A stretch of DNA of 33,729 nt from a virus. The stretch's first letter is position 1. Each line of letters starts with the position of its first letter. The notes beneath the pieces are model-generated. The model made no database searches. It was given only the letters and a program-made list of their open reading frames with translations, and was not told where the DNA came from. Shown in pieces: positions 3,210-33,729 of this stretch. The stretch covers positions 1 to 33,729 of IMG/VR virus record IMGVR_UViG_3300014880_000077. One strand, written 5' to 3'. Made by a program: the position numbers and the translations under genes.

Positions 3210-4912
3210 TAGGTGCCGGAATTGACCACAAAGAAATGAACTCTAACGTTTCCATTCCATGCTACTGGGCCAGTGTTTTTGAAAGAAACCCAGAATCCAC
3301 CAGTATAAACCAATACTTCCTCAATGGTATACTTAAAGGAAGCATTTTCGGTTCCTCGTGTAATACTAGCAAACACACGGCTGTTAGCATTTATCAACGA
3401 ATTGGTAATATCAACATTGTAAACAGCACCGACGATTCCAGTTAAGTTTGGTGTCGTGATAGTGCCACTTTCAGCATGCAAGGTAGCTGTCGCCACTACC
3501 GTATTAAGTGTTACCGCAGTAGCTGATGATGGATAACCACGATTACCGTTTGCGATATTTCCTTGCGTGTAAACAATTGGAGTTCCGTTTACCAATTCAT
3601 AAACATTGCAGTTCTGGATAACGTCGTGGATGCCAAACGCAGATGCCACAATGCCATTAGCACCTGATGCCAATCGACAAACAGTACAATTGCGCACCGT
3701 GGTAAGCGACAAACGAATTCCGTGCCCAGCCGTCAAGTTCAATCCATCAATATGCACATTATTGAGGTCGCATTGCTGACTTGTAAAGTCAATGCAAGCT
3801 TGGCCAGCAGCAGCAAGAGGCCAATGCATAAAGATATCACTGATCTTGTTGTGAATACCACCTACAATGATTCGACCTGCGGCGTAGATAAAAATGCCAG
3901 ATATCGTACACCAATTTGACAATAGCTCAATGGATGGCCCTGTTTGCGAGATGCTTTTGAAAGCACAGTTCTCCACTACCGTTAACTGAGCACTAGCAAG
4001 AATCTTGAGTGTACTGTTCGCCCCCGGAGTGTTGTTGAATAGGCAATTCGTGATTCTTGGCCCAACGTTTCCGACAGGCGTTGCGCCAATAATCACACTC
4101 GTAGTTCCAGTGGAATTAAATTGACAGCGATCTAGCCGAACTAAACCAACCGTGCTGTCAATGAAGAGGTATGTACTTGATGAACTATTTTCGAAATACA
4201 GAGCGTGACCATGTAGCAATCCAGCGGCTGTTAAAGTGATTCCAACGTATTGAGACGCTTCCAGGAAAAGGTTGTAAGCCCACATGAACGCCACGCCAAC
4301 CACGCCACCATGCAATTCGATTACCGGCCTACTCGTACCTGCATCACCGCAACTATTCCAATGGCAATTCCCATCTACGGTCACTACAACACAAGAGCCA
4401 ACACGAAGTGCGCTCCCTTTGATCCACTGGATAATAGTATCCCTGATACTAAAGTAAGATGCTTCGTCAATGTTGATAGCGGCTTGAATTGCAAAATTAC
4501 GAGCTTGACTTGTTCCTATCCAGTCTGCAATTGAAAGACCTTCGATTCCCCCACCAGAAGTTTGAACGAAATCGGTAGCACCCACTGCTCGCTTCCAAGA
4601 AAACATGTAGGTGAGCGAGTTCTTTGGCCTGATAACAGCATGCGTAGCATCTGTAAGTCCAACCGCACCAGGCAACGCCTTGTTCCCCATGTAGGATTTC
4701 AGCCAAATAGGAAACTTGCTTCGGATTGTTACCTCAGAAGCCATTGCGTAGACATTGCCAGGAGGAAACCAGACAACGCCACCAGTTGCCTCAATCGAAC
4801 TGACAGCTCGTTGAATAGCAGGAGAATCATCGGCGTTGCCGTCACCGGTAGCGCCGAAGTCCATGATGTTCACAAACGTCTGTCTCGGAATCTTTACGAC
4901 TTCACTGGGCAT
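3209..4912 (-). CDS. Tailspike-like protein with pectate-lyase-type beta-helix
   Basis: This 567-residue protein opens with the classic Pectate_lyase_3 signature: VNIMDFGATGDGNADDSPAI at residues about 14-33, then VVWFPPGNVY. In phages this motif marks right-handed beta-helix tailspikes that bind or degrade surface polysaccharide. The centre contains many short N/V/I-rich rungs, for example LVRLDRCQFNSTG, PRITNCLFNN and LTVVENCAFKS, as expected for parallel beta-helix coils. The last 100 residues (TLHAESGTITTPN, SFKYTIEEVLVYTGGFWVSF) look like a separate beta domain. No signal peptide is present. Polysaccharide-degrading activity is an inference from the fold; catalytic residues cannot be assigned from sequence alone. 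It is 4 bp from the upstream gene. Confidence 0.85.
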   Translation of the reverse strand: MPSEVVKIPRQTFVNIMDFGATGDGNADDSPAIQRAVSSIEATGGVVWFPPGNVYAMASEVTIRSKFPIWLKSYMGNKALPGAVGLTDATHAVIRPKNSLTYMFSWKRAVGATDFVQTSGGGIEGLSIADWIGTSQARNFAIQAAINIDEASYFSIRDTIIQWIKGSALRVGSCVVVTVDGNCHWNSCGDAGTSRPVIELHGGVVGVAFMWAYNLFLEASQYVGITLTAAGLLHGHALYFENSSSSTYLFIDSTVGLVRLDRCQFNSTGTTSVIIGATPVGNVGPRITNCLFNNTPGANSTLKILASAQLTVVENCAFKSISQTGPSIELLSNWCTISGIFIYAAGRIIVGGIHNKISDIFMHWPLAAAGQACIDFTSQQCDLNNVHIDGLNLTAGHGIRLSLTTVRNCTVCRLASGANGIVASAFGIHDVIQNCNVYELVNGTPIVYTQGNIANGNRGYPSSATAVTLNTVVATATLHAESGTITTPNLTGIVGAVYNVDITNSLINANSRVFASITRGTENASFKYTIEEVLVYTGGFWVSFKNTGPVAWNGNVRVHFFVVNSGT

Positions 4913-4916
4913 GTTG

Positions 4917-5453
4917 TTATGGCGGTAAGAGGTAGTTGACAGTAGTTCTGTTGCCTGCTGATGTTGCGTCCACAGTTACTCGATCAGTCACTCCGTCCAG
5001 TCCTTTGAATGTTTCTGTCGGACTGCCAGCACCAGATACCTTTCCAGCGATAATTGCTCCGATGATCATCATGGCTTGCTGAAGAGTCTTGCCATCAATC
5101 GATATTTGATCAACGAAGCCATCCGTGATGACAGTAGACCCAGTCCAAGCAAACTCGATGGTAGCCCAAGGAGTTTCTGTATACAGCGGTGTTACGGAAG
5201 TATACAGATCAAGATTGTAGTCTCCTTTTACTAACGCTGGAATAGTAAAGTATCTCCATCCAGTGTTCACTCCACCAGAAAACTGAATGTTAGTGGGAGT
5301 GAGTTTTCCATTGCCATAGTTTCCACTGGAAACTGAACCAATCGTTGTTGTGGTCGTTCCACCAGTTAAAATCAATTGCCTGCTATTACTCCACAAAATA
5401 GCAGAGTTAACAACTGAACTGGGATCGTAGAACGTGATTCGATTGGTAGCCAT
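4917..5453 (-). CDS. Phage structural protein, tail/virion accessory
   Basis: This 178-residue protein has a C-terminal part (KTLQQAMMIIGAIIAGKVSG, TETFKGLDGVTDRVT, AGNRTTVNY) that matches the 'L-x-x-x-x-A-x-x-x-G-K-x-S-G ... V-T-F-x-x-x-x-x-x-x-D-R-V-x-x-x-x-x-x-x-G-N-R-T' pattern repeatedly seen at the ends of phage virion and tail-associated proteins. The N-terminal part (ATNRITFYDPSSVVNSAILW) is beta-like. A palindrome copy encodes VSSGN at residues 41-45. It sits directly upstream of the tailspike gene and may help attach it; that role is inference. Confidence 0.75.
   Translation of the reverse strand: MATNRITFYDPSSVVNSAILWSNSRQLILTGGTTTTTIGSVSSGNYGNGKLTPTNIQFSGGVNTGWRYFTIPALVKGDYNLDLYTSVTPLYTETPWATIEFAWTGSTVITDGFVDQISIDGKTLQQAMMIIGAIIAGKVSGAGSPTETFKGLDGVTDRVTVDATSAGNRTTVNYLLPP
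5319..5333. repeat. Dispersed palindrome, exact copy, centre C
   Basis: Inside the structural gene at 4917-5453, read as VSSGN in a Gly/Thr-rich stretch. Confidence 0.95.
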
Positions 5454-5482
5454 CTAGAAATTCTGGTAAGAGTTTCAGTAAA

Positions 5483-5497
5483 GTTTCCAGTGGAAAC
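5483..5497. repeat. Dispersed palindrome, exact copy, centre G
   Basis: Intergenic, in the 53-bp gap between the genes at 5507-5839 and 4917-5453. Confidence 0.95.
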
Positions 5498-5506
5498 AAA
5501 ACCAAG

Positions 5507-5839
5507 TCAGCAACTAAAATCACGCTTCCGTAATCTCTGAAGATATGCAAGCTCTTCAGAGAAACGTTGGTGATCGCAAGGCTCTAAAGGAGGATTGGTT
5601 TTTGCCAACTCCCCCTCTAGTTTAGCCAAGCGGTTGTCAACCATTTCCAGAGTATAGGAACTGCTAGACTGAGCTTCGACAACAGGATCAGCCAAGTGCA
5701 GTTTAAGGAGTTCAATTAACTTGACACGACGCTCTTCGGTAGCTTCTAATGTTGGCAAATGCGAAACATCGGATTGCGGAAGAGCGTAATGACAATCAAT
5801 ACTACCTTGAGTTTCCGGTTTGTGATTTTCTGAATTCAT
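5507..5839 (-). CDS. Small hypothetical protein, predicted helical
   Basis: This 110-residue protein is charged and mostly helical. Residues about 33-50 (EATEERRVKLIELLKLHLAD) and 66-80 (EMVDNRLAKLEGELAKT) form heptad-like stretches, suggesting a coiled coil. I recognise no family, and no strong ribosome binding site is visible before the ATG at 5839. Its place among structural genes suggests a minor virion or assembly factor, without proof. Confidence 0.65.
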   Translation of the reverse strand: MNSENHKPETQGSIDCHYALPQSDVSHLPTLEATEERRVKLIELLKLHLADPVVEAQSSSSYTLEMVDNRLAKLEGELAKTNPPLEPCDHQRFSEELAYLQRLRKRDFSC

Positions 5840-5866
5840 GATTGCTAGATTATTGGACTGGCAGTA

Positions 5867-6283
5867 TTACTGAACCGGCACTGTCACGGTCATCGCTGAG
5901 CAGGAGATAGTCCCGCCCGCCACGATGGACTTATTATCAAACACCATGTCTGGTGTATCTCCCGCATTTCCAGCGGTGCCTTGGAAGATCGTAGTTCCAG
6001 CACCACTCTTGACACGGAAATGCCCAGCGTCACCAGATGCATCAGCATTCGTATCGCTGGTAATCGTGTTAGCAGTTGCGGTGCCGCTAGAAGATGTTCC
6101 AAAAGCAGTTGCCGCAAATAGAAGCGTACCTAGGAGTGTGCCGGTATCTGCGTCAGCCACATTCGCCGGTGGAGCACCAGTGCGGATCGCACAACTACCG
6201 GCACCGCCTACGTCGATAAGATCGACGATGGCGTTGCACGCCGCATCTCGTGATGCCGTAGAGATTTTGAAGTTACTCGCCAT
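5867..6283 (-). CDS. Conserved phage structural protein, beta-rich
   Basis: This 138-residue protein begins MASNFKISTASRDAACNAIV and continues DLIDVGGAGSCAIRTGAPPA. It has a middle Phe/Ala/Gly/Thr block and later GHFRVKSGAGTTIFQGTAG. This layout (short helix with 'R-D-A-x-x-x-x-I-V-D-x-I-D', an 'I-R-x-G-x-x-P' strand, 'F-R-V-x-x-x-x-G-x-x-x-F-x-G-x-x-G', beta-rich ending in V-T-V) is common among small phage virion proteins near the portal and head genes. The function of this family is not settled. It starts a few bases after the upstream gene and probably shares its transcript. Confidence 0.75.
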   Translation of the reverse strand: MASNFKISTASRDAACNAIVDLIDVGGAGSCAIRTGAPPANVADADTGTLLGTLLFAATAFGTSSSGTATANTITSDTNADASGDAGHFRVKSGAGTTIFQGTAGNAGDTPDMVFDNKSIVAGGTISCSAMTVTVPVQ

Positions 6284-6289
6284 AACCGG

Positions 6290-6640
6290 TTACGCTCCTT
6301 TTTCCTGAAGTTCACCTTGTTCGGTTTTTACGGGAGGAGCAGAGAGCGCTTCCCGCAAGGCCGGCTTGTTGATAGCCTTGTCAATCTCTTCCGGAGTCGC
6401 CCGCGCAAAGTTCTTCATGCGGGTGATCCGTTCGTGACGACGCCCGATTTCAGTTTCGATGGAGTTTCGGATTTCTTGAGAGTGATGGATTTCTTGGCCA
6501 AGCGCACTCGCAATTGCGTGCAGTTGTTCTAAGCTCATTTCATGGAGCTTCTCAACATTTTCCGGAGCTACGAGCTTTTCGGATAATGCCAGGACAGTTT
6601 CCACTCTTTCTGTGGTAGCTGGAGCTGGGGTTTTTGCCAT
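6290..6640 (-). CDS. Hypothetical coiled-coil protein
   Basis: This 116-residue charged protein is predicted helical from about residue 10 to 75 (ERVETVLALSEKLVAPENVEK, then LHEMSLEQLHAIASALGQE, then IRNSIETEIGRRHERITR), followed by a loose Pro/Lys/Glu-rich tail. AAGGA lies upstream of the ATG at 6640. It lies directly downstream of the portal gene, a place where scaffold or head-completion proteins can occur, but no family resemblance supports either role. Confidence 0.65.
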   Translation of the reverse strand: MAKTPAPATTERVETVLALSEKLVAPENVEKLHEMSLEQLHAIASALGQEIHHSQEIRNSIETEIGRRHERITRMKNFARATPEEIDKAINKPALREALSAPPVKTEQGELQEKGA

Positions 6641-6662
6641 AAGGAAATCTCCAAAATAAAAA

Positions 6663-6677
6663 GTTTCCAGTGGAAAC
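6663..6677. repeat. Dispersed palindrome, exact copy, centre G
   Basis: Intergenic, in the 43-bp gap between the portal stop codon (6684) and the next start (6640). Confidence 0.95.
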
Positions 6678-6683
6678 TACAGG

Positions 6684-8474
6684 CTAATCACTCTGGCTAC
6701 GACTTCCCGCTGGCGGTTGGAGGCGGGTCTCTTCACTCGTTGTGGTACCAGGATTAGCAGGACGACCACCAAGATTGCCGTTAGCGGAGCCTTCGTTCTG
6801 CCCACCAACGCCTTCCCATACTTGCAAATCCTCGTTCTCTTTGCGGGATTGTATGGTACTGGATTTGAGACTATCAGGGTCTCGGCCAAGTTCGCGAGCC
6901 GAAGTACGCGGATCGCTGACCTTACTATCGAAGAGGAACCTGACTTCTTCTAGAAGCTGTCTCGGTTCCTTCAAGATGTTTTCATCAAAGACAACTGAAA
7001 TCAGATGTTTCTCAGGTGTCTTGATTAGTTTAGAGACGCTAGGATGCCTAAAGAAATCGTAGAAGAGTAGCTTAATCTGACGGCGAGCCTGCTGGATATG
7101 AGCGATAAGTTTCTTGATACCAAGAAAGCCACCGCCATAATTCTGCCCGTCTCCTGTCATGAGTGCTCGAACGATTCCCACCCAATTGAAGATGCGATTT
7201 TCTGGAGAAACGAATTTCTCATCATCGAACATTTCCTTAGGCGGAAACACAAATTCGATTTTTGTAGTATGATTCACTGCGGCCCGCATGGCCTTAGCCA
7301 CTACTGTAAACTTCTTCAGTAGCTCGCCAGCGTCCTTCTTCGTCAACCAATTCTTGCGAGTACCAGCGATGGGACCAGTGTCTACTGACTCACCTTGTTT
7401 GATAAGCATGATGAAATGCTTCATCATAAAGGCCGCACTGAATTCCCCCTCCACTAACATCTGGCGTTGAGCTAAGCTTAAGAAGATTTTCTGCATCGAT
7501 GGATTAGCAAGGCCATGATAACGGCGATTCTTGGTGCGGACAATCCAGTAGTCGCCATCTTCATTACGTAACTGGACCTGCGTGGCCCCTGCTAGCACAG
7601 CCTCAATCCACTTGATACCAAAACCTTTTTTAATCAGGTCTTCAGTGATCTTGGCATCCGGAATCTTCGGCCTGACATTCCTGCCATTCTGGAAAGCGTT
7701 TTGGATTTCAGCAATGACCGCCTTCGGGATATCCACTAAGAGTACATCACGCCCTAAAGAATTGTCCCAGTCGATTTCTGCTGGGTTAAGCGTGCAGATA
7801 TCCGAGATTCCAGGTAAGCCGTAACGACTTGGCTGCACAGAGCTTGGGTCAGTATCTTCCCCTACCCGCCCTTGGCTGTCAGTGCTCCCATCTACCTTCC
7901 AGTAAAGCACCATGTTATCTGTGATGAACCAATCCTTAACAACGTCCATCACTAACTTATCTAAATCCATATCCAGGTGCAGAAAATCTAACTGCTCCTG
8001 GAATGACATTAAATCTGTTTGCTCTTGCTTCTCATTGGAATAGGTGAGTGGTGGGTGATCACGTAAAGCTAATCCAGCCATCGTGAATTCGATTTTTACA
8101 TCGATCAAGTCGGCTAGAAGATCATCTTTTTCATAATAAAACTGCGAACGAACCACTTGGCCACGACGATCCTTCGGGATTTCGCGGTTCATTAAAACCG
8201 AGAGACTGCCCGCTTCCGAGTTTCCAGTGGAAACTTGTTCGCGAATAGACTCAGGATTTGCCATTGCCGGAGCTACGACAAAGGCCAAGTCGCCAAGTAG
8301 AGCGTCTAATTCCTTGGCCTCTTCCTTAGTGAGACTGGAAATTTCATCTTCCAGTTCTTTATTAAGGTTAGTGATGCGGTTAACGTGTCCGTTAACCTTA
8401 GGCTTTGGTTTCCGAGAAGCCACTTCATTGGCTAAAGAAACACCATTACCGTTAGCACGAGCTTTTCGCACCAC
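6684..8474 (-). CDS. Phage portal protein
   Basis: The portal forms the dodecameric DNA channel at one capsid vertex and docks TerL. The protein is about 596 residues. I chose the GTG at 8474 because GGAGG (8481-8485) lies six bases upstream; an upstream in-frame TTG at 8498 has no comparable site. Supporting stretches are VKIEFTMAGLALRDHPPLTY, the following charged helices with KDWFITDNMVLYWKVDG (a typical portal wing strand), WIEAVLAGATQVQLRNEDGD, IFNWVGIVRALMTGDGQNYG, and a C-terminal SDPRTSARELGRDPDS. Length and gene order (directly after TerL) fit a large portal. A palindrome copy gives VSTGN at residues about 81-85, in the N-terminal region before the core. Confidence 0.85.
   Translation of the reverse strand: MVRKARANGNGVSLANEVASRKPKPKVNGHVNRITNLNKELEDEISSLTKEEAKELDALLGDLAFVVAPAMANPESIREQVSTGNSEAGSLSVLMNREIPKDRRGQVVRSQFYYEKDDLLADLIDVKIEFTMAGLALRDHPPLTYSNEKQEQTDLMSFQEQLDFLHLDMDLDKLVMDVVKDWFITDNMVLYWKVDGSTDSQGRVGEDTDPSSVQPSRYGLPGISDICTLNPAEIDWDNSLGRDVLLVDIPKAVIAEIQNAFQNGRNVRPKIPDAKITEDLIKKGFGIKWIEAVLAGATQVQLRNEDGDYWIVRTKNRRYHGLANPSMQKIFLSLAQRQMLVEGEFSAAFMMKHFIMLIKQGESVDTGPIAGTRKNWLTKKDAGELLKKFTVVAKAMRAAVNHTTKIEFVFPPKEMFDDEKFVSPENRIFNWVGIVRALMTGDGQNYGGGFLGIKKLIAHIQQARRQIKLLFYDFFRHPSVSKLIKTPEKHLISVVFDENILKEPRQLLEEVRFLFDSKVSDPRTSARELGRDPDSLKSSTIQSRKENEDLQVWEGVGGQNEGSANGNLGGRPANPGTTTSEETRLQPPAGSRSQSD
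8220..8234. repeat. Dispersed palindrome, exact copy, centre G
   Basis: Inside the portal gene, read as VSTGN followed by SEAGS. The same S-E-A-G follows the copy at 14093. Confidence 0.95.
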
Positions 8475-8517
8475 GAGAAGCCTCCAACGGCAGAGCAAGG
8501 AAGGAGATTAACGGAAC

Positions 8518-10272
8518 CTAGATCGGTTCCATTTCGACAGCCACATCTTCATTATCGTCCGAACTGTCAGACGTTATCCCTTCCTTCATCATCCAGCGAT
8601 AAAGCAAGCAGCCAAAGTAGCCGTAAACCAAAGTGTAGGCTGAATCTTTCTTTTCTTTGCTTTCGAATTTGTACATCCCAAAGCTGTCAATCTTCGGTGT
8701 CCCGTCACGGTTATGAGCGTAATCGACAAGGATAAGCTGGTCTACCGCTAAATCCATCTCAGCCTTGATTTTATCTTGCTCACTTAAATGAGCATGCTGG
8801 TTCAACCATTCCCTTTTACCAGCCACGTCCCACATTGCCTCGTTCTTTTGCCAGCCATCCCAGGTACCGGAAAGAGCTACATTTTGATTTTCAATCGCCC
8901 CCCTAAATTCAGTATGTAATTTATTCACAATAACACTATCACTTGCCATCTTGCCCCACATCAACTTTACATAGTAATCCGAGCGATCAAACATAACTAA
9001 CTTCGGGTTACCAAGGACACCAGATGGATCAGTAACAGTCACGATTGGCGTGGCCTCGGTTTGATTGTTATCAATAAGCTGCTTGTCATTACGAAGTTTA
9101 TCTTTCACGAACAAACCACCGCCACCAGGATCACCAACTACTAAAGCGAAGTTGAAAATCCGATCATACTTATGAATTAGACCAGACATTTGGATATCAC
9201 TGATCTTATTATAGCGAGTCGTCAGGCAATGGATTGGTAGATAATCCGGAGCACGCATGCGCCATACACTCAAGGCAAAGTCGTCACCACTTCTAGCCGA
9301 ATTATCTCCACCGCCCGCCGCTGTATCAAATGCAGCAATGTAGATATCATCAGGGTGCGTCCGATGCAATGTCAGAATTGCCGAACTCAATCGACATTGC
9401 GATACTGCCTTGGAGTTATACCATGTTGCAGAATCTTCTTCCCAAATTCCATCAATTTCGGTTCTAACGAAACCTTTAGGTAGAGTTGTCTGCATATGGT
9501 AAATGATATCCTCATTCAAGAGGAAGTCCCACTGCTCAGTAGCCGGGACATGTCTCCAATTACAAGTGAAGTGTCCGTAGTTATGATTTCCACGGGCAAT
9601 ATGCCGATCTACTCTTCGCACCATCTTATAAGCTGGATGGTGCTTGAACTTAGGAGTAGAAGCTAAATGTACGTGATTCCTGCGAACATCACAATTCTTG
9701 AAGTTATTTGTTTTCGTTACGCGGCCAATGATCGTAGTGTTGAGAGCTTGAAAGTTTCCATACGTCACCCATTCATCCAGGAAAGCGTCGTTCCAGCGTT
9801 CAGAACGCAGTCGTTCAGCATCATGCATAAAGTTCGGCGGTAAGACTCGAATCTCTGAGCCACCCCGAAACAAGGCTGTCCATGCTTCGTTACCATGCAA
9901 GAGTCTCGGCTTCCCACCAGCATGAGAAACTGTCGAGCGAAAAATGGGGCTAGTATTGTACCAGCGATCCAGGTTGGCGAAGATTAGCTTACCTTGGGCG
10001 AAGGTCTTCGAAAGAATACCGCACGTGCGTTCAGTCATTAACACACAACGCATGGCAGCTACTAGAGCATACGTCCAAGACTTTCCAGTGGAAAATCCAG
10101 AATCGTCATTAGTGTAATAGCTTGTCCACATCCACAGAATGCGGAGTTCTTCATGCGGAGGAAGGCGAACACGAAAGATAACCTTGGCTGCTAAGATCGG
10201 ATTGAAGAGCATGTCTTCAACCATCATAGCAGTTAGCTTTCGATCAACTTTCCATCTGTTCTGGCTCGCCAT
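8518..10272 (-). CDS. terL: Terminase large subunit
   Basis: The ATPase-nuclease motor packages phage DNA into proheads. This 584-residue protein has an ATPase part with a Walker A-like SGFSTGKS at residues 58-65 and a Walker B-like NDAFLDEWV at about 165. The nuclease part has AAFDTAAGGGDNSARSGDDF with its first acidic residue, then FALVVGDPGGGG (second acidic residue, with the Gly run usual in this fold). Total length suits the family. The start at 10272 has a GAGGA-type site 5-6 bases upstream. The gene overlaps the end of the Cys-rich gene upstream by 29 bp and is followed by the portal. The stretch encoding F-S-T-G-K resembles the dispersed palindrome but is better explained by the Walker A motif. 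Confidence 0.92.
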   Translation of the reverse strand: MASQNRWKVDRKLTAMMVEDMLFNPILAAKVIFRVRLPPHEELRILWMWTSYYTNDDSGFSTGKSWTYALVAAMRCVLMTERTCGILSKTFAQGKLIFANLDRWYNTSPIFRSTVSHAGGKPRLLHGNEAWTALFRGGSEIRVLPPNFMHDAERLRSERWNDAFLDEWVTYGNFQALNTTIIGRVTKTNNFKNCDVRRNHVHLASTPKFKHHPAYKMVRRVDRHIARGNHNYGHFTCNWRHVPATEQWDFLLNEDIIYHMQTTLPKGFVRTEIDGIWEEDSATWYNSKAVSQCRLSSAILTLHRTHPDDIYIAAFDTAAGGGDNSARSGDDFALSVWRMRAPDYLPIHCLTTRYNKISDIQMSGLIHKYDRIFNFALVVGDPGGGGLFVKDKLRNDKQLIDNNQTEATPIVTVTDPSGVLGNPKLVMFDRSDYYVKLMWGKMASDSVIVNKLHTEFRGAIENQNVALSGTWDGWQKNEAMWDVAGKREWLNQHAHLSEQDKIKAEMDLAVDQLILVDYAHNRDGTPKIDSFGMYKFESKEKKDSAYTLVYGYFGCLLYRWMMKEGITSDSSDDNEDVAVEMEPI

Positions 10273-17436: not shown

Positions 17437-18807
17437 TCATGCCGCCAGCAGTCTGCGTAATTCATCACTCAAGCTGGTACGACGGCGATTAGAGATTGTA
17501 TTCTTGATAGCAGATTGAACTGTCTCGTACTCCCCCACTAGCACCGCCAATGATTTTCCACGTGTCAAGCCAGTGTAAAGCAAATTTCTGGTTAGCAACC
17601 TCGTGTGACACCGATGCACGGGAAATAAAGCAATCGGAAATTCTGATCCTTGACTCTTGTGAACCGTCTGAGCAAAAGCCATTTGCAATCGTTGTAGCAT
17701 TTCGCCCTTGAATTGTACGATGCCATCCAAGTTAGGACCGGTATTAGGCCCAAAATCTACTGTCACGTGCCAGCCATTATTCCCGTGAACGATTTCTTTG
17801 ACAAAGCCAGTGTCACCATTTACCAGATACAGCTTCTTATCGTTCTTCAAATTAATAAGCTTGTCACCGACTCGATAAGGACCGGATGCATTCTTCTGAG
17901 CAGGGTTCAAGGCATCGCGAAGAACTTTATTAAGGTTCTTCCTGCCCACCACCCCTTCCTTGCCGGGTGTCATGACTTGAATATCATGAATAGGATGTAC
18001 CTTACGTTTAGTAGGCAAATCCTCGGTAATCCATTTCACCAAAGCTTTGACAGTCGCTTCCTGACTATCTTTCTGCACAAAGAAAAAGTCTTCAAAAATG
18101 TTTCCAATGGAATCTTGCTTAGAAATTTGCTGTCCACGCAGAATGAGATTGGCGTTATAAGTTATGCCGCTATTAACGCCAGTCCGCAACACAACATCAA
18201 GTTCAACTTTCGGTATAGCATCCACTTCCATCAAATCGCGAGCAATGTTCCCTGGTCCAACGGAAGGAAGCTGATACTGGTCACCACACAAGATAACTCG
18301 TGTACGTCCAGGCTGAATTGCCTCAATGAAATCACGCATGAGTTCGCAATCTGCCATCGAAAATTCATCCATGACGACTACATCATACGGCAAAAAGCAA
18401 AATCGATTGTATGAAAACCCACCAGTGCCACCATCATACCGCAAACCAGTATGCACAGTCGCACACTCGACTCGCTCAACAAAACTCTTACCGGCATTGA
18501 CAACTTCATTAGCCCGCTTGGCTGCCTTGCCAGTTGGCGAGACAATAAGAACCCGCAATCCAGCCTGGATAAAAGATTCGACTACCATCTTCAAAGTCGT
18601 CGTCTTACCAGTCCCTGGTGGACCAGTAATGATGGATAGCGCCCGCGTGCAGGCATTCACAACCGCCTCTGGCTGCTTGTGCAATAAGGTGGCGGTAAGG
18701 GAAGGAATCTCTTTCACCTTGCTACGGTGTAGCCTAGCCAAGAAAAAAGCTAGCTCCTTTTCGGCTACGTACATTTCAGGGGTGTAAAGCTGGAGTGAAG
18801 TGTTCAT
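17437..18807 (-). CDS. recD2: RecD2-type helicase, C-terminal motor part (split gene)
   Basis: This 456-residue SF1B helicase motor has motif I GPPGTGKT (62-69), motif Ia-like VLIVSPTGKAAKRAN, motif II VVMDEFSM, motif III LCGDQYQLPSVGPGN, then IQVMTPGKEGVVGRKNLN, GDKLINLKND, FAQTVHKSQGSEF (motif V) and LYTGLTRGK (motif VI). RecD2 enzymes are normally about 740 residues, with an OB/HhH region before this motor. Here the N-terminal sequence (LYTPEMYVAEKELAFFLARL) begins exactly where the 'Y-x-x-E-x-x-x-A' segment after the HhH region lies in RecD2. The missing part is the separate gene at 20451-21410. It overlaps the upstream small gene by ATGA. Confidence 0.9.
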   Translation of the reverse strand: MNTSLQLYTPEMYVAEKELAFFLARLHRSKVKEIPSLTATLLHKQPEAVVNACTRALSIITGPPGTGKTTTLKMVVESFIQAGLRVLIVSPTGKAAKRANEVVNAGKSFVERVECATVHTGLRYDGGTGGFSYNRFCFLPYDVVVMDEFSMADCELMRDFIEAIQPGRTRVILCGDQYQLPSVGPGNIARDLMEVDAIPKVELDVVLRTGVNSGITYNANLILRGQQISKQDSIGNIFEDFFFVQKDSQEATVKALVKWITEDLPTKRKVHPIHDIQVMTPGKEGVVGRKNLNKVLRDALNPAQKNASGPYRVGDKLINLKNDKKLYLVNGDTGFVKEIVHGNNGWHVTVDFGPNTGPNLDGIVQFKGEMLQRLQMAFAQTVHKSQGSEFPIALFPVHRCHTRLLTRNLLYTGLTRGKSLAVLVGEYETVQSAIKNTISNRRRTSLSDELRRLLAA

Positions 18808-19100
18808 TTTTTGGTTTTCTTGACTCGTGAGTTTCCAGTGGAAACTTTTTTCAGGTTGCGAATTTGGCCCATTTCCCGCTTGGCCGCACCGGAAAAATAA
18901 CCAACACAGTCCTTTTCGAACATTGCACGGTGCTTTTCGAAAGCAGCATGCATTCTTTCTTTGTGATGCTCAACCGTTTGGCCGGTCACTTCTAACATAC
19001 GCTCGAAGTTTTCCTGAGCGGCACGCACATCGTCAGGATTCCTCGTCCTCATCATCGGTGTCCCAATCTCCCCCTCGCTGAGAACCCTGTACAGTTCCAT
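18804..19100 (-). CDS. Small hypothetical protein, basic tail
   Basis: The protein is about 98 residues from the ATG at 19100, chosen because GGGAGG lies six bases upstream. A longer in-frame start at 19196 would overlap the DUF3820 gene far more. The middle (DDVRAAQENFERMLEVTGQT, then VEHHKERMHAAFEKHRAMFE) is a long charged helix, likely coiled coil. The C-terminal tail contains palindrome-encoded VSTGN (86-90) and ends SRVKKTKK. It sits between the two RecD2 halves and overlaps both neighbours. Not recognised; possibly a partner of the split helicase, which is inference. Confidence 0.65.
   Translation of the reverse strand: MELYRVLSEGEIGTPMMRTRNPDDVRAAQENFERMLEVTGQTVEHHKERMHAAFEKHRAMFEKDCVGYFSGAAKREMGQIRNLKKVSTGNSRVKKTKK
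18831..18845. repeat. Dispersed palindrome, exact copy, centre G
   Basis: Inside the small gene 18804-19100, read as VSTGN close to its basic C-terminus. Confidence 0.95.
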
Positions 19101-19305
19101 GCTCTGCCTCCCTTTCACGTTGGATATTAGGTTCGTTGAGATATTCCGTGAGCGTATCAAAGAACTCTGGATATCTGGTTGTCCAGTCTTCGCCATCCTC
19201 CCATTGTGTAATCAGCCAGTCAATGTACCTGAAACTAAGTTCATTCAGGACACGCCCTTTATGTTTACCAAATGGAACTGTTGCATCACCAAACTTCGTC
19301 GGCAT
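19033..19305 (-). CDS. DUF3820 / ExoX C-terminal-like protein
   Basis: This 90-residue protein has VPFGKHKGRVLNELSFRYID then WLITQW, the core of the DUF3820 family, which is also found as a C-terminal module of exonuclease X and in many phage replication clusters. The function of the domain is not settled; a nucleic-acid-related role is usual by context. The C-terminal 25 residues are very acidic (DTDDEDEES). GAGG lies six bases before the ATG at 19305. It overlaps the HNH gene end by 20 bp and the next gene by 68 bp. Confidence 0.8.
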   Translation of the reverse strand: MPTKFGDATVPFGKHKGRVLNELSFRYIDWLITQWEDGEDWTTRYPEFFDTLTEYLNEPNIQREREAEHGTVQGSQRGGDWDTDDEDEES

Positions 19306-19723
19306 TGGATACCTCGTTCATTCCATTATGGAGGTTGTGATGTTCTTCGATAGTGACAAGCTGCAAGTTAAGCAACCCGTTGTGCAGTCTGTTGCGGTTT
19401 TTGTGATGCACTAAGTATCCTTTCGGAATTTTGCCGTGTGCCGCAATCCAAACCAGTTTATGAACCCTGATTTTGCGGCGACGATAAACAACTAATTTCT
19501 CCCAATGTCTCGGATAACTGACACAGCAACGAAAAATCGTTACAGAATAATACTCATACCCTTTCCTTCCAGACAAATGTCTTTTAACCTCCTTCCATTT
19601 CTTTTTACGCTTATGGTATGAATAGACTCTGCCAGTATTAAAGTTAACCTTCAAGGTTCCCTCTTCCAAGCGTTTATACACAACATCGAGAGTTCCAGGC
19701 AGGACTTCTGGCCACGGTTTCAT
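19286..19723 (-). CDS. HNH endonuclease, homing-type
   Basis: The protein is about 145 residues. I take the ATG at 19723 (MKPWPEVLPG) because the longer frame to 19858 would overlap the NUDIX gene by over 100 bp. RRRKIRVHKLVWIAAHGKIP then KGYLVHHKNRNRLHNGLLNL then QLVTIEEHHNLHN is an HNH nuclease core with the H-H pair and the trailing N and H. The N-terminal part (LKVNFNTGRVYSYHKRKKKW) resembles the DNA-binding lead seen in phage freestanding homing endonucleases. Such enzymes nick phage DNA and spread their own gene. It lies between the two RecD2 halves. A palindrome near-copy fills the 23-bp gap before its start. Confidence 0.82.
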   Translation of the reverse strand: MKPWPEVLPGTLDVVYKRLEEGTLKVNFNTGRVYSYHKRKKKWKEVKRHLSGRKGYEYYSVTIFRCCVSYPRHWEKLVVYRRRKIRVHKLVWIAAHGKIPKGYLVHHKNRNRLHNGLLNLQLVTIEEHHNLHNGMNEVSNADEVW

Positions 19724-19728
19724 GGTAT

Positions 19729-19743
19729 GTTTCCAATGGAAAC
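19729..19743. repeat. Dispersed palindrome, near-copy, centre A
   Basis: GTTTCCAATGGAAAC is intergenic, 5 bp upstream of the HNH start and 3 bp downstream of the NUDIX stop. Confidence 0.8.
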
Positions 19744-19746
19744 TTT

Positions 19747-20439
19747 CTAGATGCCACCTCCGTTCCAACCCCACAGCAATGCAGGAAAAATTATCCTGCT
19801 CCAGCTTTCCAGGCTTGAAGTAGCTGCCTCTTGCTGTAGTTGTAGGTAATCGAGCCATCGCACATCTGCCAATTCATCTTCAAGAAGCTCGATAGACTCT
19901 ACTTCGCTTGTTATTAAATCCAGGCAGTACACAACTCCAAAATGTATCAAGCCTACGTCGTCCGTATCGTCGTTAACATATCCAACCTGCCGAATGCGAC
20001 CATGCTTGCCGTGCTCGGACCATTTAATAGATACTTCCTCGTTGAATTCACGGATCATCGCCATTCGGATAATGTCTAGAAACGTTAATCCTGGCTTGTT
20101 GTCTATCTCTTCCTTAATGTGACCGCCAATGCCAATCGAAATGCGGTTGTGCAGTCTCTGCTCACTACCTTTTACAGTCCGGCGATAAGTAAGGAGTTGT
20201 CGGTTGTGTCTTAAGCAAACATAAGGGATGATCTGCTTCAATTCGAACCGCTGCTCTACCGTATCCCTTGCCACCCACTCCACTTGGTCAATAGAATGGT
20301 AGCGATAGTAGGAATTAGGGACGAAGCCATTGAAATAATGGCTAGCCAGTAACCTGCTCTTGGCCACAACCATGATGTTTTTGTCTAGCTTATTTCCACT
20401 GGAAATTTCCGGATTTGTACTAGAATTCGACACTGACAT
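19747..20439 (-). CDS. NUDIX hydrolase, phosphoesterase-like
   Basis: This 230-residue protein carries a NUDIX box variant. GIGGHIKEEIDNKPGLTFLD is followed by a helix with MIREFNEEVSI, giving the R-E-x-x-E-E core that binds metal and the diphosphate. The extra residues between the GHI start and the REFNEE helix are typical of the COG4112-like phosphoesterase branch often seen in phages. Then VGYVNDDTDDVGLIHFGVVY is the usual following strand. The substrate is unknown; nucleotide clean-up fits its replication-gene neighbours. Start at 20439 with AAAGGGGG upstream. A palindrome variant gives ISSGN at residues 12-16. Confidence 0.85.
   Translation of the reverse strand: MSVSNSSTNPEISSGNKLDKNIMVVAKSRLLASHYFNGFVPNSYYRYHSIDQVEWVARDTVEQRFELKQIIPYVCLRHNRQLLTYRRTVKGSEQRLHNRISIGIGGHIKEEIDNKPGLTFLDIIRMAMIREFNEEVSIKWSEHGKHGRIRQVGYVNDDTDDVGLIHFGVVYCLDLITSEVESIELLEDELADVRWLDYLQLQQEAATSSLESWSRIIFPALLWGWNGGGI
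20392..20406. repeat. Dispersed palindrome, variant with both ends changed
   Basis: ATTTCCACTGGAAAT lies inside the NUDIX gene and is read as ISSGN. The outer bases changed G to A and C to T together, so the dyad is kept. Confidence 0.75.
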
Positions 20440-20450
20440 CAGAACCCCCT

Positions 20451-21410
20451 TTAGGAAAGAACGAGGCCGTTTGACTCCGAATATGCCTTCCAGTCTGTTT
20501 CGTTTGTTAATAACTCACCTTTTTTGATCATGGCTTCTAGGACAGGCTCGATGGACTGCTGTCCAATCTCACATAAGATCGCCACTTCGCGGATTAGCTC
20601 GCTCGCTGGTAGATGAGTGTGCCCACCTTCTTCGCAGGATTCATTGAGTTGGTATAAAATCGCTGCTTTGATACGACCAGGGTCTGTTTTCGGAACTCCC
20701 AATAGGTCGGCAATCTTAGCTACTGTCTTAAAACCAAAGCCTTTGATTTCCGTAAGGCTAAAACAATCCTTGCGAATTTTCTCTTCCGCATTGTGTCCAT
20801 ATTGATTAATGACCTTCTCAACCTGATTCGGTAACATTCCGATCGCGTACAACCTCTCTTTGAGTTGCAGATTACTGCGCTCTGCCTTCGCCCACTCATT
20901 GACTGCTAGAGCAATATTCTGCGAAACCCCTGCTACTAAAGTCAAGGAAGCTGGATCAGTACATAAGACGTGCATTGTCTTATCGCCGAATTTATTAACC
21001 AGTCTGCTGGCTAACTGCGGCCCAATATGCTTACACTCTCGCACGAGAAGTTCTTTCAAACCGTGCTGAGAGTTAACGAAGCATTCATAAGACTTGAAAA
21101 CAAACTGCCAGCCACCGAACTTTAAGTTCTCTTCCCATTCTCCGGTTAGTAGATACTCAGCCCCCACGTTAGCTTTTGGGATAACCCCCACACACGTCAC
21201 TCCCCCGATTTCACAAACCGTAAACCCACCGTCATTTCGAAACTTGACTCGCTGGAGAGGTCCACGATGCTGGGTTTGTGTGGTATCAAACTGCCGACCC
21301 TTGATTTTTACTATCATTGATTTTACTATAGTTGCTTTTCCCGAACTCATCAAGTTGGGGGGGTGCGCAGTTGAATCTTCGTTGATGCCAGTTGAGGCAG
21401 ACTTGGACAT
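20451..21410 (-). CDS. recD2: RecD2-type helicase, N-terminal OB/HhH part (split gene)
   Basis: This protein of up to 319 residues matches the non-motor N-terminus of RecD2: an OB-like start (RGPLQRVKFRNDGGFTVCEI), then LTGEWEENLKFGGWQFVFKS, then tandem helix-hairpin-helix segments (KHIGPQLASRLVNKFGDKTM, ASLTLVAGVSQNIALAVNEW) and EIKGFGFKTVAKIADLLGVP with DPGRIKAAILYQLNE and EEGGHTHLPASELI. It ends near the family's domain boundary (VLEAMIKKGELL ... NGLVLS) with no motor after it; the motor is the gene at 17437-18807. The first ATG at 21410 overlaps the previous gene by 125 bp. A later start, such as the Met before IVKIKGRQFD, would remove most of that overlap, so the true start is uncertain. 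Confidence 0.82.
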   Translation of the reverse strand: MSKSASTGINEDSTAHPPNLMSSGKATIVKSMIVKIKGRQFDTTQTQHRGPLQRVKFRNDGGFTVCEIGGVTCVGVIPKANVGAEYLLTGEWEENLKFGGWQFVFKSYECFVNSQHGLKELLVRECKHIGPQLASRLVNKFGDKTMHVLCTDPASLTLVAGVSQNIALAVNEWAKAERSNLQLKERLYAIGMLPNQVEKVINQYGHNAEEKIRKDCFSLTEIKGFGFKTVAKIADLLGVPKTDPGRIKAAILYQLNESCEEGGHTHLPASELIREVAILCEIGQQSIEPVLEAMIKKGELLTNETDWKAYSESNGLVLS

Positions 21411-22830: not shown

Positions 22831-24252
22831 CTACGCGGTGACAGCCTGCTTTTCGGCGGCAGGAGCATTGGCCGCTTCCGGTTGGCCTGCGGCTTCAGCC
22901 TTGGCCTTCTCGGCAGCTTCCTTATCCTTGCGAGCCTTCTCGCGGGCAGCATTGTCGCGTGCCTTCTTCTCAAGATGCTCCGCATGTGCCTTAGTGATAT
23001 CAGCCATGAAGGCTTCGACATCAGGCACCGGGAAGGAGACAGCATCCTTATCGTCACTGGAACGAATGTGCTTCTCCGGCAACCCAGCTTTCTTGCCCTC
23101 GGCCAAGGCAGAGACGACGGACTCTTTGACCTTGGCGAGCGCACTAGGCAGAGTTGGCATCTCGCGTTTCGGATTCGGCTTTCCGTTCTCCAGGAACGCA
23201 GGCGGAATCGATTTTAATTCCGTCTCGATCGCAGTCACGGACTTCCGAATGTACATCTTCCTAGCAGTCGCTTCCTTCTCGGCGACTTTTTGGGCCTCGG
23301 CTTCCTTTTCCAGCTTTTCCTCCCACGGCTGGAGTTCGGCAGCCAGAGAAGTGCCCTGCTGCTTCAGGAAAAACTTCGCGGCATCGACGCGAGTCTCCCA
23401 CTTAACCTTTTCCGGACCTTTTGCCTTCGTGGCCTGCTCTTCGAAGTGCGGGAGATATTTCTCCTTCACTACGTTGGCCCGAATGGACTGATCAAGCTTC
23501 TGCGTGCCAGTCGCAGCAGTTGCTTCGCCGTTTCCAGTGGAAACTGTCGTGTCGCCTTCCTGCTTGAACTTCTCAGGATAGGTCTTGATCAAATGCGCAC
23601 GGAACTTCTCCGGCGTCATGTCCGCACCAAGCGCCGCCAACTGCTTCTGCTCTTCCGCAGGTAACCGCAACGCTTCAATCTCGCGTCCGTTCGACCAGGA
23701 GAGTTTGCTTTGGGCAATCAAATCCTGGACAGACGAATCAAGATCAGTCATTCGCACATAGTTGCTGATGGTCGCCTTCGGCCATCCAGTCATCCGGTGC
23801 AAATCGGTCTGCGTCAGTTCCTTGTCGTCATCCAACAACATACGGAACGTGCGAGCCGTCTCCATGTTGGTCATGCCTTTACGTAGTAAATTCTCGACCA
23901 ACTGATCGACCTTCCCGCGAATCGGACTCTCGTCCTCTTTCGCGATTACAGGAACGTGCGTCACCCATCGCTCATCCCCAGTCGTTTCGGCTAGGCGAGT
24001 AAGTGCTTTCACCCGCCCGAAACCGTATTTGAGTTCATACGGCTTGTCGTGCTCGGTCTGACGAATCTTGGGAGTTCGTCGAACACCGATGGGTTGCAAT
24101 AACCCATTCGCTTCCTCAATCGACGCCGCGAGTTGCTCAATCTCTTCCGCCGTATGGCGTGACTCTTCGCGGGAGTTCAGTTCATCGTCGATGTAGACCT
24201 CATCACGAACGTTCATGTACACCATCTGTCCTGCATCTGCTGTGGCAGCCAT
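22831..24252 (-). CDS. ParB-like DNA-binding protein
   Basis: The protein is about 473 residues from the ATG at 24252 (MAATADAGQMVYMNVRDEVY), chosen because AGGAG lies 8 bases upstream. The ParB/KorB-type N-terminal domain spans about 26-140: AEEIEQLAASIEEANGLLQP then IGVR, the box-II equivalent YELKYGFGRVKALTRLAET, and LVENLLRKGMTNMETARTF. A helix-turn-helix follows (ELTQTDLHRMTGWPKATISN, 145-164) and then a long Lys/Glu/Ala-rich helical C-terminus. ParB proteins bind palindromic parS sites, spread on DNA and act in segregation. Palindrome-encoded VSTGN lies at 237-241 and another copy (24329) upstream. I see no ParA partner in this window. The match to parS-like repeats is discussed in the findings. 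Confidence 0.88.
   Translation of the reverse strand: MAATADAGQMVYMNVRDEVYIDDELNSREESRHTAEEIEQLAASIEEANGLLQPIGVRRTPKIRQTEHDKPYELKYGFGRVKALTRLAETTGDERWVTHVPVIAKEDESPIRGKVDQLVENLLRKGMTNMETARTFRMLLDDDKELTQTDLHRMTGWPKATISNYVRMTDLDSSVQDLIAQSKLSWSNGREIEALRLPAEEQKQLAALGADMTPEKFRAHLIKTYPEKFKQEGDTTVSTGNGEATAATGTQKLDQSIRANVVKEKYLPHFEEQATKAKGPEKVKWETRVDAAKFFLKQQGTSLAAELQPWEEKLEKEAEAQKVAEKEATARKMYIRKSVTAIETELKSIPPAFLENGKPNPKREMPTLPSALAKVKESVVSALAEGKKAGLPEKHIRSSDDKDAVSFPVPDVEAFMADITKAHAEHLEKKARDNAAREKARKDKEAAEKAKAEAAGQPEAANAPAAEKQAVTA
23530..23544. repeat. Dispersed palindrome, exact copy, centre G
   Basis: Inside the ParB-like gene, read as VSTGN between the HTH region and the C-terminal helical region. 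Confidence 0.95.
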
Positions 24253-24328
24253 AGTAGAATCTCCTAGACTTTCAAAAGTGAGACTTTCAGTAAAAAACAC
24301 ACAAAACTCAGCCACTTCTCAAACCCAA

Positions 24329-31530: not shown

Positions 31531-32865
31531 CTATTCGCCGAACGGATCAATCGTCGCCACGTGTTCGTTTAGTCTCCCAACATCCAATTCCTGCACCTCA
31601 GTCTCCAACATCCCTAAGCACGGCTCGCGATGCTTACACCAATACTCACAGTGCTCCCCTTCATTCCGATAGAACCGGCCATCCCGAATCATCCCCGCTA
31701 AACGCAGTATATCCGCTGACCTAGCCTGCAAGAAAGCCCACGGACGATCCGTCACAATATGTCCCGGCCCAGCTTGCTCCCCCTTCTTATAGCCATGTAT
31801 CCACTTATCGTTGATCACCTGCTTCTTGCGCATGCGACCGGTGTCAGGGTTCATCTCCTTCCCGCCGGCAGGATCATCCACGTACTTGGTGTACTGGTCC
31901 TTCTGCCTAGGCATATAATCCCGCATCCAGATCAGCACGGTCTTTTGTGGGATCAGCATTGGCCACTTCGAAGTTCCAATCAAGCTCTGACAAACCGAAC
32001 AGGGGCCAGCATAAACTAGCTCGCCCTCGTCACTATATTTCGGACGGCACTCGGAACATGAAGGGACACCTTTATGAACTGCAAAGCCATACAGCGTGAG
32101 TTGGAGGTCCAGCTTGGCAGCAGTCGGCCCAGGTCGAAAATCGTTAATACGGAACTTAATATCTCGAAGGGCGAATACTCCGTCGTCATAATATCCAGCT
32201 TGGTCAATCGTTCCTGTAAAGTAGAATGTGCGGGAGAATTCATCTTTAAGTTCCAGTACAAAAGACTGTTCGAGAATCGTAGCATGGAAAGTCTGGTTGT
32301 CCTTGTGCCGCTGGTACCCCAGGAGCATTGTACAATACTCTGGACAGACGGCCTGTGCTTGGGCGCGGAGAGTCGGATACTTAGCGGAAAGGCGGGGTGG
32401 AATTTTCGAGTCGCGGCAAGCGGTGTCGAACTCACGGAGGAATAGTTGCATGATGTCTACGTATGTAATCGCAAAATTCCGCGACTCGTGCATATGTTGA
32501 ATCACGCGGTGCCCTGCCGTCCCCATGACAGCCGCAAAGAAGGTATCCTCTTCCTCGTGGCCAATCACCCAGCGATAAAGGAACATCATCGGACACTTGC
32601 GATAATCTTGGAGCATGGACTGGCGGAAGTATAGGTTACCACAGAGGTCAGCGATAGCCGGGGAGTAGTTCAGAACGTTGCCACCGTAAGTGGGTTCGTT
32701 GGTGAGAGCTTTCAGTTCAGCGAGGGCGATGAGCCGGTCAGCCGACTTGGCATCCTCTTCGGAAAGTAGGCGAGTAGTGGTATGCTGCGAGCCATCCGGT
32801 TTCGCAACGTCGCCCAGCGAATCAAAGCCATCAGGGTCAGCAGAATTATAGTCGGCGAAAGGCAT
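31531..32865 (-). CDS. PD-(D/E)XK nuclease, Cas4/RecB-like
   Basis: The protein is about 444 residues from the ATG at 32865 (MPFADYNSADPD). LQDYRKCPMMFLYRWVIGHE gives the first Cys and helix, then FAAVMGTAGHRVIQHMHES, TFYFTGTIDQAGYYDDGVFA followed by LRDIKFR, and KLDLQLTLYGFAVHKG, matching the PDDEXK_1 / Cas4-RecB nuclease layout (D ... D-x-K ... Q-L-x-x-Y). An internal zinc-ribbon-like insert (CSECRPKY ... CSVCQSL) and a final Cys group (EHCEYWCKHREPCLG) could hold an Fe-S cluster with the first Cys, as in Cas4-like enzymes; that is inference. A role in DNA end processing or recombination is likely. A palindrome near-copy lies just upstream. Confidence 0.82.
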   Translation of the reverse strand: MPFADYNSADPDGFDSLGDVAKPDGSQHTTTRLLSEEDAKSADRLIALAELKALTNEPTYGGNVLNYSPAIADLCGNLYFRQSMLQDYRKCPMMFLYRWVIGHEEEDTFFAAVMGTAGHRVIQHMHESRNFAITYVDIMQLFLREFDTACRDSKIPPRLSAKYPTLRAQAQAVCPEYCTMLLGYQRHKDNQTFHATILEQSFVLELKDEFSRTFYFTGTIDQAGYYDDGVFALRDIKFRINDFRPGPTAAKLDLQLTLYGFAVHKGVPSCSECRPKYSDEGELVYAGPCSVCQSLIGTSKWPMLIPQKTVLIWMRDYMPRQKDQYTKYVDDPAGGKEMNPDTGRMRKKQVINDKWIHGYKKGEQAGPGHIVTDRPWAFLQARSADILRLAGMIRDGRFYRNEGEHCEYWCKHREPCLGMLETEVQELDVGRLNEHVATIDPFGE

Positions 32866-32869
32866 ATTA

Positions 32870-32884
32870 GTTTCCACTGGAAAT
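32870..32884. repeat. Dispersed palindrome, near-copy, last base changed
   Basis: GTTTCCACTGGAAAT is intergenic, 4 bp upstream of the Cas4/RecB-like start codon. Confidence 0.75.
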
Positions 32885-33498: not shown

Positions 33499-33729
33499 GG
33501 GAATTCCTCATCAATGATTGTTTCCAGTGGAACTTTCTGTCCCGCAAATTCGTGTGTACAATCTCCTTGGAAGTGAAGGATTCCTTCCGTTAATATAAAA
33601 TGGCAACGCGGTGTTTCCACGACATTTTTATTCTCGTCAAACGTTTTGTGTGGATAGGCGAGCGTTTTGTGTGGATAGGCGAGCGTTTTGTGTGGATAGG
33701 CGAGCGTTTTGTGTGGATAGGCGAGTAAC
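33495..33729 (-). CDS. Partial DUF6527-like protein with in-frame heptapeptide repeats
   Basis: This open frame enters from the right edge and ends at TGA 33495-33497, overlapping the next ATG (ATGA). Only the last 77 residues are here. The end reads PRCHFILTEGIL, then HFQGDCTHEFAGQKVPLETI. This matches the closing pattern C-H-F-x-x-x-x-G-x-I/L-x-F-x-x-D-C-T-H-x-x-A-G-x-x-V of DUF6527 proteins (function unknown). Before it, LAYPHKT is repeated four times, encoded by the perfect 21-bp tandem repeat at 33642-33725. A degraded palindrome (GTTTCCAGTGGAACT, 33520-33534) encodes the VPLET part. The start codon is outside the window. Confidence 0.7.
   Translation of the reverse strand, partial: LLAYPHKTLAYPHKTLAYPHKTLAYPHKTFDENKNVVETPRCHFILTEGILHFQGDCTHEFAGQKVPLETIIDEEFP
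33520..33534. repeat. Dispersed palindrome, degraded copy
   Basis: GTTTCCAGTGGAACT lies inside the partial DUF6527-like gene. The right arm has two changes, so it may be chance. Confidence 0.45.
33642..33725. repeat. Four perfect 21-bp tandem repeats
   Basis: Four identical 21-base units (CGTTTTGTGTGGATAGGCGA plus G) run to within 4 bases of the right end. They are read in frame on the minus strand as LAYPHKT. The array may continue past the window. Confidence 0.95.

Follow-up and report, generated by a model that had tools for sequence, protein, structure and literature searches.

The stretch of DNA considered here, referred to below as the window, is the whole of IMG/VR record IMGVR_UViG_3300014880_000077, a single metagenome contig of 33,729 bases that is possibly a fragment. 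It carries genes of a tailed phage (that is, a virus of bacteria), and the minus strand holds all the main ones. Among these are a putative terminase and portal region at 6684-10272, where the names are a reading of the sequences, a gene for a ParB-like protein at 22831-24315 and an exonuclease gene at 31531-32877. The genes of principal interest form a block, also on the minus strand, whose members are closely spaced or overlapping; in transcription order these are a small gene (21651-21286), the gene for a RecD2 N-terminal chain (21410-20451), a NUDIX-like gene (20439-19747), an HNH gene (19723-19286), a DUF3820-like gene (19305-19033), a second small gene (19100-18804), the gene for a RecD2 motor chain (18807-17437) and a primase gene (17427-14197). 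The small gene at the head of the block overlaps the N-chain gene and matches no family in Pfam or PHROG. The primase gene, next after that for the motor and part of a replication module, encodes a primase-helicase (phrog_47, DNA primase) of 1076 residues that combines a CHC2 zinc finger and primase region (PF01807), an MCM-like ATPase (PF00493) and a C-terminal winged-helix-like stretch.

RecD2 is normally a single long DNA-unwinding enzyme chain. Here, judged from the sequences, its two parts are encoded by two genes, both of which look intact: an N-terminal chain of 319 residues that comprises an OB fold, an HhH region, the HHH_RecD2 domain and the first part of the wing, and a motor chain of 456 residues that comprises the last helix of the N-terminal domain (NTD), two RecA domains, an SH3_13 domain and the SF1B motifs. 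Both open reading frames were confirmed at these coordinates and are free of internal stops. The RecD2 profile TIGR01448 (713 positions) matches the N chain over positions 3-262 (140 bits) and the motor over positions 269-710 (381 bits), so that its coverage passes cleanly from one chain to the other with almost nothing missing, and E-values of 7e-41 and 9e-114 exclude a chance match for either. Neither chain alone reaches the curated cut-off of 500 bits, and the sum of 521 bits is no formal score; the unsplit phage RecD2 proteins of loci L003 and L092 also fall slightly short of this cut-off (488 and 486 bits). PHROG 4412, a single family of 743 residues, likewise matches both chains (34-275 for the N chain and 327-738 for the motor). 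The initial annotation, which had proposed that an OB/HhH N-terminal part and an SF1B motor here make up one RecD2, is thus borne out, and the alternative that the parts belong to different families does not hold.

Searches at the level of domains and structures agree. In Pfam, the N chain exceeds the cut-offs for the RecD2-specific NTD families OB_YrrC (PF23139, 38 bits) and HHH_RecD2 (PF14490, 81 bits), while the motor matches AAA_30 (PF13604)/AAA_19, SH3_13 (PF18335) and UvrD_C_2 (PF13538). When the sequences are compared with those of solved structures, the motor matches Deinococcus radiodurans RecD2 (3e1s, E 3e-43) and the end of the N chain matches the preceding part of that same chain (E 2e-12). 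AF2 predicts a compact fold for each (mean pLDDT 86.7 for the N chain and 90.7 for the motor); residues 1-30 of the N chain score below 50, and since these roughly 30 residues are predicted to be disordered, translation may actually begin at an in-frame ATG further downstream. With Foldseek, the best match of the N chain model is RecD2 in 3gp8 (136 columns, E 1.4e-6), ahead of RuvA and some weaker matches to OB folds, and that of the motor is again 3gp8, a RecD2-DNA complex (TM-score 0.82). Every invariant column of the Walker A/B, GD-QLP, H--QG and YT--R motifs is kept in the motor when it is aligned with 29 relatives (30 sequences in all), which, taken with the uninterrupted reading frames, bears out the earlier view that both parts look intact. 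Codon use in both genes is like that of the phage core genes (correlations 0.76 and 0.80). When all ORFs of the 33.7-kb record were searched with N and motor profiles, just one ORF of each type was found, leaving no second RecD2 within it.

The two genes are separated by 1.6 kb containing four genes, whose identities (NUDIX, HNH, DUF3820 and a small gene) agree with those first given. The NUDIX-like gene comes first, with an SD-like GGGGG ahead of its ATG; its match to PF00293 is weak (20.8 bits against a cut-off of 21.1), that to phrog_8902 stronger (E 1e-33). Next is a homing-endonuclease-like HNH gene (PF13392, HNH_3, E 1.2e-11, as well as several PHROG HNH families), overlapped by the gene for a small DUF3820/PF12843-like protein that lies barely above its cut-off (22.4 bits against 22). 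The small gene directly ahead of the motor has no match in Pfam or PHROG, and its stop codon overlaps the start codon of the motor gene (ATGA). Placed on a shared profile of 715 columns, the window break lies at about 273/268, within the wing and ahead of the last NTD helix. This position, in the wing/linker that connects the HHH domain to the first RecA domain, agrees with the domain border first described and leaves both main folds unbroken.

In order to place this arrangement among its relatives, profile-guided scans of viral contigs were made, yielding 11 and 80 loci; all their ORFs were searched with the N and motor profiles and the junctions inspected. After removal of near-duplicates there remained 83 phage loci besides the window, six of which lack an N part (some being cut by contig ends), leaving 77 as the base for counting splits. 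A division between the HHH domain and the motor was seen in 14 of them (L002, L006, L021, L028, L030, L031, L032, L057, L063, L073, L075, L076, L079 and L089), a proportion that is not a population estimate, as the phage set was picked by similarity to the window motor. Bacterial genomes searched in the same way gave 80 loci, of which 78 are unsplit, two are cut by contig ends and none is split. Unsplit relatives, whose existence had been one of the points to check, thus occur among both the phage and the bacterial loci sampled, while the supposition that separation of RecD2 is uncommon did not survive: it is recurrent in these phages. On plasmids, going by annotation, RecD2 genes are mostly whole. 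Literature searches found no paper describing a split RecD2; the pieces are, however, already annotated in one GenBank record, that of Virus Rctr197k (KX853510, here L006), as recD2_1 and recD2_2.

In all 15 split loci, including the window, the two parts share a strand, and the N part lies upstream. In 13 of the 14 other split phages the break falls in a single linker, the N part ending at columns 291-309 and the motor starting at 310-322, the exception being L006 (240/247). The window break therefore precedes the usual one by some 30-45 columns, and the last NTD helix (YVAEKELAFFLARL) is on the motor chain in the window, as against on the N chain in most split relatives. The halves are adjacent or overlapping in most of these relatives, four of which (L002, L028, L030 and L031) show 4-nt stop/start overlaps, an arrangement typical of coupled translation of partners. 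Six others have 0.4-2.1 kb between the halves: in L075 this holds solely an HNH gene (HNH_3 with HNH_repeat, a homing-endonuclease-associated repeat), in L073 a DUF7768 gene and others, the last of which, adjoining the motor, is of GIY-YIG type, in L057 a DUF7768 gene and a small ORF, in L032 an MT-A70 methyltransferase, and in L063 and L089 no clear ORF or just a tiny one. A nuclease gene thus lies between the halves in three of the seven gap-bearing loci (the window, L075 and L073), being in the window one of four genes there. No intron was matched in Rfam in the whole window (at the gathering threshold), in its gap (at a relaxed threshold) or in the six other gap loci.

Some other forms of RecD2 were seen in the course of the survey. 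In L088 (ORF 3499-6939) and L094 (ORF 4864-8505) the protein reaches 1147 and 1214 residues; in each, some 400 of these are extra, lie within the motor region and are probably inteins. In L007 (Alicyclobacillus phage KKP_3916, 3686-5888) RecD2 is divided within the motor, in overlapping ORFs, unlike the splits between NTD and motor; a frameshift, either programmed or an error, is a candidate explanation.

As to the history of the split, a tree based on the motor alone implies at least four changes of state. In a tree of concatenated N and motor sequences, 11 split loci and the unsplit L092 form one group (support 88/65, or 98/85 without L002), which the window joins at 79/64, while L075 lies inside an unsplit clade with L038, L044 and L066 (100/99). 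A single origin of all splits, L075 included, is rejected (p-AU 0.00015). On these grounds one large split lineage, probably old, is indicated, and there is on the sequences at least one independent split, that of L075, in which an HNH gene alone has been inserted and whose sisters are unsplit. L031 is probably another, as the loci closest to it, L052 and L069, are unsplit, and L092 may represent a re-fusion. Membership of the window in the older split clade is probable rather than certain; given the weak placement of the window there and its different break point, its split could be of separate origin. Distances between N parts and between motors are correlated among the split loci (r 0.62, a value equalled or exceeded in three of 5000 permutations), as they are among unsplit ones (0.70). 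For both chains of the window the nearest relative is L002 and then L021, both split, and L021 also has distant relatives of the window primase and exonuclease. The closest relative shares about 40% identity in the motor and about 30% in the N part; exact-peptide scans found no close relatives through the motor or primase and only distant ones (~31%) through the N gene, while that with the terminase gave a sole relative, the 4.8-kb contig L100 (62%).

The best reading of these sequences is of a two-chain enzyme, and we consider it likely overall that this is a RecD2 assembled non-covalently, that its split is probably old, and that the gap genes arrived later by way of the HNH gene. What counts for this reading is the complementary coverage of the profiles, the AF2 folds and their matches to solved RecD2, the kept motifs, the recurrence of the division in phages, the correlation between N and motor, the lack of any Rfam intron, the count of no splits among 80 bacterial loci, the homing-type nucleases between the halves in the window, L075 and L073, and the precedent of the split NrdA and gp43 described below. 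What counts against it is that the motor might act alone, that the window is weakly placed in the split clade and has a different break point, and that no more than three of the seven gap-bearing loci hold a nuclease. One RecD2 would then be encoded as two polypeptides, a DNA-binding N chain (OB, HhH and HHH) and an SF1B 5'-3' motor chain, both made from one gene cluster. The chains would most likely associate non-covalently to give a working RecD2-like helicase, in which the N chain would dock on the motor and supply the NTD contacts, and at phage forks the pair would stand in for a single RecD2, serving phage DNA replication or recombination beside the phage's own primase-helicase. The NUDIX, HNH, DUF3820-like and small genes would have gathered later in the junction, with the HNH gene, being of homing type, as the likely agent; such is the order of split and insertions that we infer for this phage.

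That the two parts might instead have become functionally parted, the motor being a Dda/Pif1-like helicase in its own right and the N chain an independent DNA-binding or adaptor protein, is the strongest of the competing explanations, and we regard it as unlikely. D. radiodurans RecD2 remains active as a translocase in vitro when its first 150 residues are removed (PMC12143592), implying that the window motor might act alone, and contigs with only a motor do exist: L093 and L095 encode RecD2-like motors of about 440 residues and have room upstream, where no N part was found. These two, however, form a clade of their own apart from the split loci, all 15 of which keep both parts in the same order and on the same strand; in addition, the divergence of N and motor is correlated, and the window motor keeps the last NTD helix. 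Decay of a gene broken by insertion and heading for loss is much less probable again. Unrelated genes have indeed been inserted between the halves, but both ORFs are intact, with core-like codon use and all motifs present, and the same division is common to diverged phages. A still smaller chance attaches to an intron or similar element that interrupts one RecD2 and is rejoined at the RNA level, as might be suggested by the HNH endonuclease between the halves, such genes being found in many group I introns; against it, Rfam finds no intron in window or gap, the four genes in between have their own starts, the N gene terminates in a stop codon of its own, the motor gene starts at a separate ATG that overlaps the small-gene stop, and the 4-nt overlaps in relatives leave an intron no space. 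Least credible is an artefact of assembly or sequencing, for which nothing specific speaks beyond the window being a single metagenome contig, since the halves are separated by 1.6 kb that holds intact genes and the division recurs in 14 other records, among them KX853510.

A two-chain RecD2 can usefully be set against several known systems. Bacterial RecD2 (TIGR01448; e.g. D. radiodurans 3e1s/3gp8 and Bacillus subtilis YrrC) has its domains in the same order and equal motor motifs, the D. radiodurans enzyme being about 30% identical to the window over the motor, but it is one chain, where the window has two chains with four genes between. The split-RecD2 phages (L002, L021, Virus Rctr197k and 11 others) share the division and the upstream position of the N part, and differ from the window in that most lack genes between the halves. 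The motor of RecD in RecBCD is a related SF1B motor that acts with partner chains, its short N-terminal domain binding RecC (PMC12143592); the window motor scores higher with TIGR01448 than with TIGR01447 (381 against 217 bits), and no RecB or RecC was recognised among the window proteins scanned, which are part of the ORFs of a record that is possibly a fragment. Finally, in the split genes of T4-type phages (nrdA with mobE in Aeh1, 43A/43B in Aeromonas phage 25, and 39/60 with mobA in T4) a replication enzyme is encoded as two pieces whose junction holds a homing-type nuclease, as here. Two such chains can form a working enzyme: the split NrdA of Aeh1 is fully active, and gp43A and gp43B of Aeromonas phage 25 co-purify with polymerase activity (PMC2988022). 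The window concerns a different enzyme, which is divided at a domain border, and the nuclease is accompanied by further genes between the halves. A nuclease may also invade a gene that is already split (PMC2988022), which fits the window, its HNH gene being only one of four insertions.

The NTDs of RecD2 are thought to bind DNA, and recent work suggests a part in strand switching, B. subtilis RecD2 often switching strands at forks, likely by way of its NTD; RecD2 has also been linked to SSB and RecA (PMC12143592). A natural two-chain RecD2 would be of value here, as the NTD could be added or omitted at will using native proteins. In addition, the recurrence in phages, the absence from the bacterial sample and the nucleases at several junctions extend the T4-like theme of split enzymes to a repair/replication helicase. 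A more far-reaching proposal, which we put forward as doubtful, is that a widespread phage clade has a RecD2 that truly consists of two subunits, with its motor regulated by an exchangeable N chain and the ratio of the chains setting helicase behaviour (strand switching, fork remodelling and choice of partner), with several origins reflecting an advantage. If true, this would be a two-subunit RecD2 freed from 1:1 covalent linkage, a helicase tuned by chain ratio.

Separately from the RecD2 genes, the palindrome GTTTCCA[C/G]TGGAAAC is dispersed across the whole window in 35 copies with at most two mismatches, against 1.2 expected, at a mean spacing of about 1.2 kb (examples being at 326, 1243, 1654, 3196, 5320, 14094, 18832, 20393, 24330 and 33521). 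Of 28 near-exact copies 18 are inside genes, and 17 of these 18 share one reading phase, in which they encode V/I-S-T/S-G-N. In bacteria the palindrome is almost missing: 26 diverse genomes contain none, and of 398 genomes from one phylum five contain a single copy each. Five copies occur in L100 and between four and eight in each of the phage contigs L103, L106, L109, L111, L123, L125, L131 and L142. The half-site, as we take it, resembles parS, and one idea is that the palindromes could be parS-like sites, the ParB-like gene being in the same phage. A 21-bp unit, CGTTTTGTGTGGATAGGCGAG, repeated four times in tandem, closes the record (33642-33725).
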